64,000 nt of DNA from Curtobacterium sp. MCBA15_009 (lineage in GTDB: Bacteria; Actinomycetota; Actinomycetes; Actinomycetales; Microbacteriaceae). The stretch is taken from assembly GCF_001864895.1 (NCBI RefSeq), contig NZ_MJGO01000037.1, positions 294,759-358,758 of the forward strand, in the 5' to 3' direction. A program made the translations under genes and the position numbers. The notes under the pieces are model-generated. The model was given only the letters and a program-made list of their open reading frames with translations. It had not been told where the DNA came from and did not search any database. This document shows, in pieces, positions 42,034 through 46,984 of this stretch. Each line of letters starts with the position of its first letter. The first letter of the stretch is position 1.

Positions 42034-42681
42034 CTAGGCGGACAGGAAGCGCAGGACGGCGAGCACCCGTCGGTGGTCGGACGGCGTCGCCTCGAGCCCG
42101 AGCTTCGCGAAGACCGCCGTCACGTGCTTCTCGACGGTGCCACCGGACAGGAAGAGCGCCTCGGCGATCGCCGCGTTCGAGCGCCCCTCCGCCATGAGCC
42201 GCAGGACGTCGGTCTCGCGGGCGGTCAGCTGGTCGAGCCGGTCCCGGAGCGGACGGGGTGCCTGCACGAGCGCGGCCGCCACCTCGGGGTCGAGCACGAC
42301 GTGTCCGGCGGCCACCTGCTGCAGCGAGTCGATGAACGTCGTGACCTCGGCCACCCGGTCCTTGAGCAGGTAGCCCACCCCGACGGTCGCCACGTCGAGC
42401 AGCGCACGCGCCCACCCGACCTCGGCGTACTGCGAGAACAGCAGCACGCCGACCTCCGGGCGGGCGGCCTTCAGCCGGACGGCCGCCCGGACGCCCTCGT
42501 CGGTGTGCGTCGGCGGCATGCGGATGTCCATCACCGCGACGTCGACCTGCTCGGACGCGATCGCGGGCAGCACGGCCTCACCGGTCCCGACGGCGGCGAC
42601 GACGTCGTGGCCCCGGCCCTGCAGCAGCGCCGCCAGGCCCTCGCGGACGATCGTGTTGTCGTCGGCGATGACGATCCTCAC
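42034..42681 (-). CDS. NarL/LuxR-family response regulator
   Basis: A 215-residue regulator. The receiver domain (1-120) has IVIADDNTIVREGLAALL, the phospho-aspartate in VDVAVMDIRMPPTHTDEG (about residue 52) and the lysine of GYLLKDR. The C-terminal LuxR HTH reads LTARETDVLRLMAEGRSNAAIAEALFLSGGTVEKHVTAVFAKLGL. Its GTG start overlaps the kinase stop by 4 nt, so the pair is coupled. Phosphorylated by the adjacent kinase; targets unknown. Confidence 0.93.
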   Translation of the reverse strand: MRIVIADDNTIVREGLAALLQGRGHDVVAAVGTGEAVLPAIASEQVDVAVMDIRMPPTHTDEGVRAAVRLKAARPEVGVLLFSQYAEVGWARALLDVATVGVGYLLKDRVAEVTTFIDSLQQVAAGHVVLDPEVAAALVQAPRPLRDRLDQLTARETDVLRLMAEGRSNAAIAEALFLSGGTVEKHVTAVFAKLGLEATPSDHRRVLAVLRFLSA

Positions 42682-44015
42682 GACGGTCCACCGGACGGCA
42701 TCGTCATGGTCACCGTGGTGGGGCCGCCCGCCGGGCTGTCGAGGACGAGCCCGCCGTCGACGGCACGGAGGCGCTCGAGCAGGCCGCCCAGCCCGGTGCC
42801 GTGGCCGTCCGCACGGGGCATCGAGACGTGCGCCCCGCCGGAGCCGTCGTCGCGGACCGTGACGACGAGGTCCGGCCCGTCCGTCGCGACGTCGACCGAG
42901 GCGCCGGTGGCCTGCGCGTGCTTCGACACGTTCGTCAGGAGTTCCAGGACCCCGAAGTACGCCACCCCCTCGATCACCGGCGCCGGACGGACCGGCAGGT
43001 CGACCCGGAGCGTGACCGGGAACGGCGTGCGCGAGCAGGCGGAGGCGAGCGCCGCCTCCAGGCCCGCGTCGAGGACCGGGGGGTGGATGCCGCGAGCCAG
43101 CGCGCGCAACTCGACCAGTGCCTCCTTCGTCGACGCGTGCGCCTGCGCGACCAGCACGCCGACGTCGTCGCCCGCGCCGCTCTCCAGGCGGTCGCGTGCG
43201 TCGCCGAGGGTCATGGCCAGGCCGACCAGACGCGCCTGCGTGCCGTCGTGCAGCTCGCGCTCGATCCGTCGCAGCGTGGTGTCGGCGTCCACGACGGCGG
43301 CGTCGCGCGACGCCGTGACCTCGGCGAGCCGACGTCGACGCGACCCCGCTCCGAGCATCGACCGGATCACCAGACGCTGCACCGAGCCGAGACCGTGGTT
43401 CACGGCGGGCCAGACCGCGAGGAGCACGACGACACCGAGACCGGCGAAGGCCACCTGCAGCGGGACGGTGTCGACGAAGACGCCGAGGAACTGCGCGCCC
43501 CGGTGCGGACGACCGTCGGCACCGATCTGCTCCGGCAGGAACCCGCCCCAGACGGCGTGGGTGACGGCACCGAGCGCCGTCACGAGCACGGCGACCGACA
43601 CGGCGAAGGTGGTCGTCGTGACGACGAAGCCGACGACCAGGTAGGCGACCGCCCGCCAGGTCGATCCGTCCGTCAGGCGGGTCGTCGCCCAGGCGAGCGG
43701 TCCGCCCCGACGCGGACGCAGCGTGGGCGCGGCGACCCGCTGGCCGAGCAGGGCGGCGGACATCCGCCGGGTGACGGCCGCGAACCAGGCCGAGCCGCCG
43801 ACCAGGAAAGCGGTCACGACGATGCCGACCCAGGTCAGCGCCGACGGCAGCCCCAGACCGACGGTGAGCGCGAACCACACCAGCCCGCCGATCGCGATCG
43901 GCAGGTGGGCCGCGTGGAAGGCGAACTGCCGCCACGTCGCGGCCGCGAAGAACCCGGAGGCGAAGCGGAACCGGGGAGGAGTGGGTGCCGGGTGGGCAAC
44001 GGGCGTGTGGGACAT
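42678..44015 (-). CDS. Sensor histidine kinase (HisKA_3, NarL-type)
   Basis: A 445-residue kinase. Four to six hydrophobic helices in residues 25-200 (LPIAIGGLVWFALTVGLGLPSALTWVGIVVTAFLVGG; WRAVAYLVVGFVVTTTTFAVSVAVLV; LQVAFAGLGVVVLLAVWPAVN) form a putative sensor-like DUF4153/Sensor region. The phosphoacceptor is the histidine in RRIERELHDGTQARLVGLAM. The HATPase end has LLTNVSKHAQATG and DDGSGGAHVSMPRADGHGTGLGGLLERL. It signals to the response regulator at 42034. The signal is unknown; relatives respond to cell-envelope stress. Confidence 0.93.
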   Translation of the reverse strand: MSHTPVAHPAPTPPRFRFASGFFAAATWRQFAFHAAHLPIAIGGLVWFALTVGLGLPSALTWVGIVVTAFLVGGSAWFAAVTRRMSAALLGQRVAAPTLRPRRGGPLAWATTRLTDGSTWRAVAYLVVGFVVTTTTFAVSVAVLVTALGAVTHAVWGGFLPEQIGADGRPHRGAQFLGVFVDTVPLQVAFAGLGVVVLLAVWPAVNHGLGSVQRLVIRSMLGAGSRRRRLAEVTASRDAAVVDADTTLRRIERELHDGTQARLVGLAMTLGDARDRLESGAGDDVGVLVAQAHASTKEALVELRALARGIHPPVLDAGLEAALASACSRTPFPVTLRVDLPVRPAPVIEGVAYFGVLELLTNVSKHAQATGASVDVATDGPDLVVTVRDDGSGGAHVSMPRADGHGTGLGGLLERLRAVDGGLVLDSPAGGPTTVTMTMPSGGPS

Positions 44016-44148: not shown

Positions 44149-44661
44149 TCAGTCGGCGTGGGCCGGTGGCCAGACGACGGAGAAGTACTCGAAGACGATG
44201 TCCTCGTGCTCCGACCACACCGCGCCGCGCGCCCGGCAGGTCCGCTCCCAGTAGCGACGGTGCTCGCGCTGCCAGCTCGGCAGCGACCGGTCGTCCTCGC
44301 CCTCGGCGTGGGCGAAGGCGGCGTCCGCGCTGTCGAACGGTCCGATGCGCAGGGCGGTGCTCCGGATGACGATGCGCGGTGCGCCGGTGCTGTCGCAGGC
44401 GATCCAGTGCGAGCCGATGCGCGGCAGCGGGTCCCCGCGGTGGGCGAACTCGGCGACGAGCTCGGCGGTGGCGCGCTTGCCGCCGTCCAGGACGATCTGC
44501 AGCAGCTCGTCGGCGAGCCGCGCCGTGTCGCCGAAGTGCTCCACCGTGTGCTCGTCGTCCACCTGGCCGAGCGGTCGCGAGCTGACGTACTCCGCCCACA
44601 TCGCCGCCGCCGCGGTCCGGTCGGGGGCCCGCACGGGGGTCACGTCGAGAGCGTCGTCCAC
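44149..44661 (-). CDS. ASCH domain protein (YhfF-like)
   Basis: A 170-residue soluble protein. The ASCH beta-barrel pattern is seen in EHFGDTARLADELLQIVLDGGKRATAELVAEFAHRGDPLPRIGSHWIACDSTGAPRIVIRSTALRIGPFDS, followed by AFAHAEGEDDRSLPSWQREHRRYWER. These domains resemble PUA and are thought to bind RNA or modified nucleosides; some are amidohydrolases of N4-acetylcytidine. Which applies is unknown. It lies downstream of the two-component kinase start with a 130-bp gap and is on the same strand. Confidence 0.88.
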   Translation of the reverse strand: MDDALDVTPVRAPDRTAAAAMWAEYVSSRPLGQVDDEHTVEHFGDTARLADELLQIVLDGGKRATAELVAEFAHRGDPLPRIGSHWIACDSTGAPRIVIRSTALRIGPFDSADAAFAHAEGEDDRSLPSWQREHRRYWERTCRARGAVWSEHEDIVFEYFSVVWPPAHAD

Positions 44662-44763
44662 GGGGCCATGCTGTCAGACCGCGCGCCGGTCCCGCGGCGC
44701 CGGGCGTGCCGGGCCGGCCCCGACGTCACCAGGTCGGGTCGCGTCCGTCGACGCACCGGTCCG

Positions 44764-44809
44764 TCGGACGGGAGGCGCGGTGCGGGTCGGCAGCGCGCCT
44801 GCCGCCCGG
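44764..44809. repeat. Decayed family A palindrome
   Basis: TCGGACGGGAGGCGCG on one side and CGCGCCTGCCGCCCGGC on the other still resemble the family A arms but with several mismatches. It lies 3' of the rhodopsin/Blh-relic unit and upstream of the ASCH gene. Confidence 0.55.
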
Positions 44810-44832
44810 CGGGTGGTGCGGCGGAGACGGCG

Positions 44833-44910
44833 TCAGCGCCGCGTCCGAGCCAGCAACGCGACGGCGACGAGCCCCGCGATGACCGCAGCGATCCAGACCA
44901 TGTCGACCAC
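44833..44910 (-). CDS. Very small single-pass membrane peptide (25 residues)
   Basis: GTG at 44910 opens MVDMVWIAAVIAGLVAVALLARTRR, a single hydrophobic segment with a basic end. GGAGGGG sits 4-6 nt before the GTG on the reverse strand, a strong Shine-Dalgarno. A start at ATG 44901 is also possible, but its spacing is poor. It is on the rhodopsin strand, just beyond the Blh relic. Function unknown; small membrane peptides of this size often modulate transporters. It could also be a chance ORF. Confidence 0.4.
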   Translation of the reverse strand: MVDMVWIAAVIAGLVAVALLARTRR

Positions 44911-44922
44911 CGTTCCCCTCCG

Positions 44923-45234
44923 TGTCGCGCCCAGTCTGCCAGCTGGACCGGCGCGGCGGGCCGGCGTCGCAGGACGCGTCCACGCCACGTGTGCTGCACC
45001 CGGTCCATCCAGGTGACGACGACCGCGTGCGGTGTCCTGAGCGCCGCGATGAGGGCGAGGTACACGCCGAGGTCGGCGCGCCGCAGCACGACCGCGAGCA
45101 CGACGAGCATCGCGACGGCGATCGCGGTGATCGGCCACGCCTGTCGCATGAACCGCAGGAACGGCGCGGCCAGCCGGCCGTGGTGCAGGTCGACCGCCGA
45201 GGGGCGGTCCGTCAGCTCCCTGTCGGTCAGTGGC
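44923..45234 (-). pseudogene. C-terminal relic of a Brp/Blh-type beta-carotene 15,15'-dioxygenase
   Basis: Directly after the rhodopsin stop, the reverse strand reads LTDRELTDRPSAVDL, LRFMRQAWPITAIAVAMLVVLAVVL, and LIAALRTPHAVVVTWMDRVQHTWRG. The last resembles the conserved C-terminal PH-x-x-x-V-x-W-x-D helix of Brp/Blh enzymes, which cleave beta-carotene to retinal. Only about 100 of the usual 300 residues are present. The frame is open and GC-rich upstream of the first ATG (45149) back to a TGA near 45240, with no good start. Gene order rhodopsin-blh is common. A deletion that joined the rhodopsin end to the blh tail is the simplest reading; the family match is from memory of the motif and needs a profile search. 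Confidence 0.45.
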
Positions 45235-46147
45235 GGTGAAGGTGCTCACCGGCAGCGCTGGCGGAGTGCTGCGTGTGGTGGACCGTGGCGGTGTTCGGGA
45301 TGGTGCCGTCCGAGAGCTTCTCGGACGAGATCCAGAGCGCCTCGGGCAGGGTGTCGGCCCCGGCGCGGACGTCCTCGGCGGAGCGGAGCTCGGCGATCTT
45401 GTGGATCATCGAGCCGAAGCCGACCTTCGCGACGATGTCCGCGGCCGACAGGATGACCTGCATCCAGGTGATGACGGCGCCGCCGTGGCCCCAGCCCTGC
45501 AGGCCGAAGACGATCGGGTAGGCCAGCCACGTGACGATGAGCAGGATGCCGGCGTTGCGGAGCGTGGCAGCGGCGGCGGTGCCCTTGAGGTCCCGCCTGC
45601 CCTTGACGACGACGTAGACCACGAGCACGTACAGGACGACCATGAAGATGCCGGAGATGATGCCCCAGAGCCACAGGGCACCGGTGTTCGTGCCCGAGTC
45701 GATGACGACACCGCCGATGAAGCCGGTGCTGATCATCAGGAACGCGGCGGCGATGCCGGCGGCGCGCAGGCGGCGGGCCGCGGCGCCGACGAGGGTCGCG
45801 ACGGCGAGGAGCTCGATGACGAGCAGCGGGACGGTGACGGTCCAGTCGAAGTACCGGGGGGCCCACGACAGGATCGCGTTCGCGTTCGGGACCCACGAGT
45901 CGCCCTTGCGCTCGTAACCGAGTGCGAACTCGACGACCAGCAGCACGTAGGACAGGAAGGCGATGCCGGTGATGCACATGCCGGCGTAGACGCCGGACCG
46001 GAACCGGCCGGTGATCTCGTTCGCCGACACCCACGACTTCACGAAGAACGCGAAGAGGGCGAGGCCGGCGACGGAGAGTGCGTAGACGATGATCGAGTGC
46101 TCGGCGAGCGACAGGGTCGCGTTCCACGGAGCGAGTGCATCGGGCAT
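45227..46147 (-). CDS. Light-driven proton-pump rhodopsin (DTE motif, proteorhodopsin-like)
   Basis: A 306-residue seven-helix retinal protein. Helix C reads PRYFDWTVTVPLLVIEL: Arg98, Asp101 (acceptor), Thr105 and Glu112 (donor), spaced exactly as Arg94/Asp97/Thr101/Glu108 of proteorhodopsin, a proton pump. Leu109 sits at the spectral tuning site (Leu105 in proteorhodopsin), predicting green absorption. Helix F has TWLAYPIVFGL; helix G has SAADIVAKVGFG, with Asp237 and Schiff-base Lys241. The C-terminus is long and His-rich (VHHTQHSASAAGEHLHRH). GAAGGACC precedes the ATG. It is divergent from an orphan LuxR-type regulator. Retinal synthesis is needed, and only a relic blh follows. Confidence 0.94.
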   Translation of the reverse strand: MPDALAPWNATLSLAEHSIIVYALSVAGLALFAFFVKSWVSANEITGRFRSGVYAGMCITGIAFLSYVLLVVEFALGYERKGDSWVPNANAILSWAPRYFDWTVTVPLLVIELLAVATLVGAAARRLRAAGIAAAFLMISTGFIGGVVIDSGTNTGALWLWGIISGIFMVVLYVLVVYVVVKGRRDLKGTAAAATLRNAGILLIVTWLAYPIVFGLQGWGHGGAVITWMQVILSAADIVAKVGFGSMIHKIAELRSAEDVRAGADTLPEALWISSEKLSDGTIPNTATVHHTQHSASAAGEHLHRH

Positions 46148-46342
46148 GTGGGGGTCCTTCGAGGTGTGGGCGGGCGGCGATCGAGCTGTCCGCCGAGGAG
46201 AACGTGCTCCCGCCCGGATCGACCGATCTCCAGGTACGGCTGCGAACGGGGTACGAGCGCGGCCGTAGCCTGACAGCACCGAGCGAACGCCCGCGCTCGA
46301 CGAGTCGTCTCACCCCCAGGGGTGAAACAGGGAGGATCCACC

Positions 46343-46984
46343 GTGCCGGAACGCATCCGCGTCGCGCTCGTCAACGACTACGAGCTCGTCCTCCGCGGTC
46401 TCGCCGACATGCTCGCGCCGTTCTCCGACCGGCTCGAGATCGTGCAGCTCGACGCCCGCGAGCGGGTCTCGGTGGACGTCGGCGTCGCGCTCTACGACAC
46501 GTTCGCGCAGCCGGAGCCGGACGACGAGGACGTGTCCCGACTCGTGGCGAACCCGAGGATCCGCGCGGTCGCCGTGTTCACCTGGAAGATGGACGAATCC
46601 CTGATCAGCGCGGCAACGCGACGCGGGGCGACCGGGTACTTCGCAAAGAGCATCTCGGGCGCGGAGCTCGCCGACGGCCTGCTGCGCGTGGCCGCCGGCG
46701 AGTCGGTGATCGGGTCGCCGAGGCGACGCGTGCCGAGCGGCCCCGGCGTCGACTGGCCCGGTCGGGAGCACGGCATCTCGGACCGGCAGTCCGAGATCCT
46801 CGCCCTCATCACGCAGGGCAAGCGCAACGCCGAGATCGCCGAACTGGTCCACCTCAGCCCGAACACGGTGAAGACCCACATCCGCACGCTCTACAGCAAG
46901 ATCGGCGCCGTGAACCGGGTCGACGCGGTCCTGTGGGGATCCGAACACGGCTTCCGGCCGGACCACCGCAGCATCGACCGCTGA
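46343..46984 (+). CDS. Orphan LuxR-family response regulator divergent from rhodopsin
   Basis: A 213-residue regulator. The N-terminal receiver-like domain starts RIRVALVNDYELVLRGLADMLAPF. The usual acidic pocket is altered (VNDYELV rather than DDH/DDD), but an aspartate follows in VGVALYDTFAQ, so phosphorylation is uncertain. The C-terminal HTH is GISDRQSEILALITQGKRNAEIAELVHLSPNTVKTHIRTLYSKIGAVNR. GTG 46343 with GGAGG 7 nt upstream is preferred to the ATG at 46322. No kinase is adjacent. It probably controls the rhodopsin and itself; light or energy input is speculation. Confidence 0.88.
   Translation: MPERIRVALVNDYELVLRGLADMLAPFSDRLEIVQLDARERVSVDVGVALYDTFAQPEPDDEDVSRLVANPRIRAVAVFTWKMDESLISAATRRGATGYFAKSISGAELADGLLRVAAGESVIGSPRRRVPSGPGVDWPGREHGISDRQSEILALITQGKRNAEIAELVHLSPNTVKTHIRTLYSKIGAVNRVDAVLWGSEHGFRPDHRSIDR

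Follow-up and report, generated by a model that had tools for sequence, protein, structure and literature searches.

The rhodopsin locus of Curtobacterium sp. MCBA15_009 raises the question of what use a rhodopsin can be to a bacterium in which the genes that would make its retinal are broken. The locus lies in a stretch of 64,000 nucleotides (hereafter the window, C37:294759-358758 of the 3.65-Mb, 41-contig genome G000) and comprises a rhodopsin gene, remains of crtY and blh behind it, and a divergent response-regulator gene. The account that we favour, to which we give a probability of about one half, is that a rhodopsin-crtY-blh set was broken, that the rhodopsin was retained as a pump together with the regulator, and that the strain now lives as a user of retinal. 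That the Curtobacterium set is broken in G000, with rhodopsin and regulator left whole, is close to certain; that the strain now uses retinal and no longer makes it is what we infer with least certainty. Rhodopsins without blh are already known; here the cause can be seen, in the form of one apparent deletion and an intact locus in the same species, and crtY was lost as well.

Comparisons were made with G031, a genome flagged as the same species as G000 (its rhodopsin locus is stretch L033), with a genus set of 66 genomes, 16 of them carrying a rhodopsin, and with a family sample of 398 Microbacteriaceae genomes, 350 of which are at least 90% complete with at most 5% contamination, some being incomplete. 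The other genus rhodopsin loci were seen as fetched stretches of 12-14 kb, and family rhodopsins were counted above the cut-off only, two weaker matches being dropped. A literature search on Curtobacterium, rhodopsin and retinal found nothing, and the papers on Curtobacterium and rhodopsin, judged by title, included none about this locus.

The rhodopsin gene and the lesion behind it

The rhodopsin gene occupies 45230..46147 on the reverse strand (306 codons, stop 45227-45229). Its product carries the motif GRDTEDK and a C-terminal extension like that of cryorhodopsins, and is matched by Pfam Bac_rhodopsin (E 4.2e-28). An earlier note on this DNA had described a DTE-motif rhodopsin with R98, D101, T105, E112, D237 and K241, and the alignment bears out each residue: the retinal lysine K241, the counterions D101 and D237, T105, the donor E112 and R98, as in DTE-type pumps. 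The reading frame is intact, free of stop or frameshift, and the six motif residues are unchanged. By its DTE motif the protein is predicted to be a light-driven outward proton pump. Ten of its 13 named relatives belong to Curtobacterium.

The gene is followed by a crtY stub (45219..45249, reverse strand), whose GTG start overlaps the 3' end of the rhodopsin gene. Of the stub, 29 bases align to G031 crtY and are followed by two junction bases (45219-45220). Next comes a blh relic (44982..45218, reverse strand) consisting of the last 79 codons; it picks up after the WHSVRH motif, in a frame shifted by one base from that of the crtY start. The site of the former blh stop (44979..44981, reverse strand) now reads GGA, in place of the TGA of G031. 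The relic came to light when G000 was searched with Pfam BCD, which matched C37:339761-339955(-) over model positions 197-267 (E 6.4e-7; 30.3 bits, the cut-off being 28); scored within the open reading frame (ORF) 44640-45149, it remained under the cut-off (19.8 bits, E 0.00065). We regard it as decisive that its 79 residues are 94% identical to positions 270-348 of the whole Blh of G031. The Brp/Blh-like tail that had been noticed on the reverse strand at 44923-45234 is thus a true relic of narrower extent. Unrelated sequence is ruled out by the BCD match and this identity, and an in-frame crtY-blh fusion by the one-base shift. In place of the full-length BCD domain with His motifs expected of a functional Brp/Blh, only model positions 197-267 are left; the histidines of the lost WHSVRH motif are, we assume, those that hold the iron.

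In G031 the three genes are whole and their ends overlap: rhodopsin (L033:8186-9103), crtY (L033:6874-8205) and blh (L033:5831-6874). The G031 Blh is assigned to the NCBIfam Brp/Blh family above the cut-off (E 6e-55), and its CrtY scores well above that of PF05834 (E 9.9e-48) and below those of TIGR01790 and TIGR01789. The same order, rhodopsin-crtY-blh, is found in 13 further genus genomes. Full-length BCD occurs in 14/66 genus genomes, each of which also has a rhodopsin. These 14 and no others give a strong lycopene cyclase match (PF05834, E 5.5e-46 or better), always between rhodopsin and blh (14/14); many other genus genomes give short, weak PF05834 matches (E 1e-8 or worse). G000 has the relic only, and the remaining genus rhodopsin genome, G024, neither crtY nor blh. 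Intact sets of this order also occur in G263 and G161, from two other genera. The divergent regulator and the palindrome described below accompany them in 12 of the 14 Curtobacterium genomes and in G161, as in the window, and are missing from G002, G042 and G263; the window differs in having lost crtY and most of blh.

Aligned to G031, window position 45218 pairs with L033:6067 and 45221 with L033:8177, so that 2,109 bp are missing: crtY except its first 29 bases, and codons 1-269 of the 348 of blh. The two flanks are 96.9% and 96.3% identical. The lesion is most simply read as one deletion of about 2.1 kb. As crtY is gone along with blh, both lycopene-to-retinal steps are lost at the locus. 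The claim that retinal synthesis was lost here therefore holds, as the intact sets of G031 and its 13 counterparts indicate; the crtY deletion, and the kinship with cryorhodopsins treated below, had been missed. Since the deletion is known from one genome assembly, it might be an assembly error or an event of laboratory culture. This we consider very improbable: the junction lies inside a 689-kb contig, its two extra bases match neither flank, inspection by eye shows no long repeat there, and the tail carries independent changes such as the lost stop. Deletion through direct repeats was discarded, as none were seen by eye at the junction.

Directly behind the relic, on the same strand, lies a gene for an ASCH-domain protein (44149-44661), which is kept in G031. 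In that genome a stretch of about 200 bp, comprising the 3' end of blh and a frame for a membrane peptide of 25 codons, occurs twice, 5 kb apart (L033:675-871 and L033:5680-5874). The two copies flank a block reaching from the ASCH gene to an MFS gene, which may have been inserted beside blh; the single copy of the window is at 44831-45025.

Retinal without crtY and blh

With crtY and blh deleted and the rhodopsin kept, the strain must borrow retinal, have some unknown way of producing it, or be on the way to losing its rhodopsin. No second Brp/Blh was found in G000, the next BCD match (E 0.17, 12.4 bits, with an inner stop) being taken as noise. A CrtY-type lycopene beta-cyclase was equally lacking, with no PF05834 match at E 0.001, and the RPE65 route to retinal was set aside because no match to an RPE65-type dioxygenase was obtained at E 10. 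Of blh, crtI, crtY and an RPE65-type enzyme, which the earlier note had named as genes to look for elsewhere in the genome, only a CrtI-family desaturase turned up. It belongs to a contiguous cluster on contig C2, together with a polyprenyl synthase, a phytoene synthase, two small lycopene-cyclase-domain proteins and a UbiA prenyltransferase, which by order and domains reads as a crtE-B-I-Ye-Yf-Eb (C50) type. We favour the first possibility, in which the opsin would become a pump only when retinal arrives from neighbours or surroundings, and the strain's own carotenoid synthesis would go to the C50 pathway.

Loss of blh with retention of the rhodopsin recurs in the family. In G345 the regulator and the rhodopsin are still present; crtY and blh are both missing from the 11-kb stretch, and its genome gives no BCD match. 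Its sister G263 has crtY and blh and no regulator; between the two, the ratio of nonsynonymous to synonymous substitution rates (dN/dS) of the rhodopsin is 0.09. In the family sample, 113/398 genomes have a rhodopsin above the cut-off. A BCD match was found in 38 of them (37 without the relic) and none in the other 75, among which RPE65 occurs in two (G222 and G451).

How blh-less rhodopsin bacteria obtain retinal is presented as an open question in PMC7734400. Two members of the same family treated there, Aurantimicrobium minutum and Rhodoluna lacicola, resemble G000 in having a rhodopsin without blh or diox1 and crtYe/Yf- and crtEb-like genes. The A. minutum rhodopsin differs in being xanthorhodopsin-like, and the relevant parts of that paper give no intact same-species locus for comparison. 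In R. lacicola, pumping was seen only when retinal was added (Keffer 2015, by the account in PMC7734400). Uptake of retinal has also been proposed, according to PMC9296517, for Saccharibacteria that lack blh and have opsins able to bind retinal when it is supplied.

Several points weigh against the borrowing of retinal by a working pump. Pump function is read from motifs alone. There is no evidence of retinal uptake in G000, whether from the plant or from neighbours as the earlier note had suggested, and no search for an importer was made. Between G000 and G031 the rhodopsin has a dN/dS of 0.375, higher than that of the six neighbour genes compared (0.14 to 0.33), as might be expected under relaxed selection, and the purifying selection seen at G345 may predate its loss of crtY and blh. 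Finally, retinal is made inside the cell in A. minutum, as judged by HPLC-MS/MS, and the organism pumps without added retinal, as described in PMC7734400.

The case of A. minutum speaks for a hidden route, by which retinal would still be made without Blh and CrtY, for instance through an unknown oxygenase cleaving a cyclic C50 carotenoid, and the deleted genes would be dispensable. A C50-derived route was proposed by the A. minutum authors from crtYe/Yf and crtEb; G000 has a contiguous cluster of the same make-up, and the 75 of 113 family rhodopsin genomes without a BCD match also count in its favour. However, crtY and blh are kept in 14/16 genus rhodopsin genomes, which one would hardly expect if another route were enough, no enzyme is named in the part of PMC7734400 that sets out the proposal, and no search for one was made in G000. 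We consider such a route doubtful. Its extension, in which an undiscovered pathway, probably starting from C50 carotenoids, would supply retinal in this strain and in many blh-less Microbacteriaceae, with crtY and blh dispensable, is likewise improbable. If it were true, the G000/G031 pair would serve as a natural knock-out through which the missing enzyme might be found.

Alternatively, no retinal may reach the opsin, which would then be useless, its gene heading for loss after a young deletion. The flank identity to G031 suggests a young split, the blh tail is already without its stop, and the rhodopsin combines the dN/dS given above with a K253E change, where G031 and the nine further rhodopsins compared all retain the lysine. 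Nevertheless, the rhodopsin is without stop, frameshift or change at the six motif residues, and blh-less rhodopsins persist elsewhere in the family. When the changes were polarised with eleven relatives, 8 nonsynonymous and 7 synonymous ones fell on the G000 branch and 6 and 4 on that of G031, with three unassigned; the changes are spread over both branches, and G000 is not clearly more relaxed than G031. They are also too few for dN/dS to serve as a test of relaxed selection, and it was set aside as such. We think it unlikely that the gene is on its way out and prefer the retention of a pump supplied with retinal from outside. The loss of two lycopene-to-retinal genes beside a kept rhodopsin and regulator, with a carotenoid cluster also kept in G000, makes G000 and G031 a ready-made comparison at this locus.

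Kinship with cryorhodopsins

The solved chains nearest to the window rhodopsin are those of the cryorhodopsins CryoR1 (E 3.8e-73) and CryoR2 (E 8.5e-74) (PDB 8r0k, 8r0p; PMC12227055), the next one being at 8e-22. The likeness extends to the family, Microbacteriaceae, and to the C-terminus: the extension of the window protein, EDVRAGADTLPEALWISSEKLSDG, is of the cryorhodopsin type EDVRAG...WISSxKxSD. As defined in the sections of PMC12227055 that introduce them, cryorhodopsins carry an arginine at the position of bacteriorhodopsin T46 and have an adjacent DUF7882 putative transducer. A very slow photocycle with a UV-absorbing state is a further mark of the group. In the window rhodopsin this arginine is replaced by Gly56. 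No DUF7882 match was found in the 20-kb stretch around the gene (L034), the one match of G000 being on contig C38; crtY-blh, now broken, and the response regulator take its place.

This association was examined over 55 rhodopsin loci. The arginine is borne by 24/55, and DUF7882 was matched in the fetched stretch of all 24 (about 3 kb off in L128, partial in L137) and at 0/31 loci without the arginine. Within the genus, DUF7882 is present in 51/66 genomes, yet at none of the 16 rhodopsin loci. In a tree of 57 rows, which warns of a few long branches, the window protein falls within a supported group of 18 (99/99), and every arginine-bearing row groups separately with CryoR1 and CryoR2 (99/100). 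Gly56 and the lack of a DUF7882 neighbour rule out a true cryorhodopsin; the protein is best described, from its sequence and neighbourhood, as a probable relative of cryorhodopsins without their arginine. The pattern over the loci indicates that the sister groups differ in their partners, DUF7882 for cryorhodopsins and crtY-blh with the regulator for the Curtobacterium type. A probable pump can here be set against the sensor proposed for cryorhodopsins, a contrast that is open to test.

The DSE rhodopsins, given as the closest relatives of cryorhodopsins in the comparison made in PMC12227055, share with the window protein a helix B without the arginine and a long C-terminus. They differ from it in motif, DTE in the window, and in tree branch, the DSE rows being named by motif and not compared with the published sequences. 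Gly162, at a position that we take to be tied to a carotenoid antenna, was dismissed as a sign of one, since glycine stands there in most alignment rows.

Two observations concern other family rhodopsins. Among the 18 family-sample genomes with arginine-bearing (cryorhodopsin) loci, 10 have no BCD match and 9 neither BCD nor RPE65, so that the question of the retinal source extends to many cryorhodopsin bearers. Three rhodopsin matches, L137 (G265:C45), G446:C1:1091034-1091605 and L132 (G161:C3), have an inner stop, are split in two or leave the frame before the retinal lysine; L132 keeps crtY and blh despite the damage. Decay may thus be under way in further rhodopsins of the family.

The divergent regulator and its candidate operator

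The divergent gene (46343..46984, forward strand) encodes a NarL/LiaR-type response regulator with receiver and GerE domains (Pfam GerE E 4e-16). It had been recognised as LuxR-type with a start at 46322; a GGAGG upstream and an ATG at the same place in G031 set the start at 46343. An orthologue (at least 82% identity) is present in 13/16 genus rhodopsin genomes and adjoins the rhodopsin in 13/13, and was found at E 1e-30 in none of the 50 other genus genomes; an unlinked homologue (51-52% identity) occurs in five genomes, including G024.

The receiver residues N12, D13, D53, T81 and K103 are invariant (10/10). D53, T81 and K103, the GerE domain and the predicted receiver fold are those of a NarL-type regulator, whereas the acidic pocket is Asn-Asp, with Asn at its first place, and Pfam Response_reg is only weak on the family (best E 0.063, 5/10 members). 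A model built from 10 sequences (mean predicted local distance difference test, pLDDT, 78.5; predicted template-modelling score, pTM, 0.64) agrees, taken over its whole length, only loosely with LiaR, VraR and NarL (template-modelling score, TM, about 0.46, domains set differently) and better with DesR receivers (TM 0.67 to 0.73 by target length). The likeness to these regulators lies in the receiver-GerE make-up and the predicted fold.

Between the divergent genes, 17 bp before the regulator start codon, lies a 7-2-7 palindrome, TCACCCCCAGGGGTGA (46310..46325, no strand assigned), which is a candidate operator. A 7-2-7 arrangement fits binding by NarL-type regulators. The core, CACCCCYRGGGGTG, occurs once in the window and in 0 of 100 shuffles; with two mismatches allowed, 3 matches were obtained against 1.95 expected, so that no further copies are recognised beyond the one site. 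Among 59 stretches scanned, the palindrome was found at 17/17 loci where the regulator adjoins a rhodopsin, namely 13 in the genus plus G345, G383, G161 and L155. The 42 others, 41 of which hold a rhodopsin, are all without it, as is 13.6 Mb of shuffled sequence; they include the close relatives that lack the regulator, of which there are four (G002, G042, G024 and G263). The simplest reading is that the regulator binds it, controlling itself, as we infer, and probably the rhodopsin. Of the suggestion that the regulator couples light or energy status to expression, the part concerning action at this locus gains support from this conservation.

The regulator had also been described as lacking a kinase. 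There is in fact a Sensor/HisKA_3 kinase (42681-44015) at 42037-44015, with its own adjoining receiver-GerE regulator; among the 16 genus loci fetched, such a pair lies near the rhodopsin only in G000 and G031, the other 14 showing none apart from a single 35% kinase match about 8 kb from the rhodopsin in G049 (L088). This kinase is therefore not supported as partner, and judged by synteny the divergent regulator is an orphan.

The palindrome is also present at three of the five unlinked regulator homologues (L074, L076 and L078), its place being checked against ORFs in L076 and L078. In L078 (G012) two copies (1425-1438 and 1447-1460) lie between the regulator homologue and a divergent gene for a Transgly_assoc membrane protein, a neighbour from which the regulator family may serve membrane stress.

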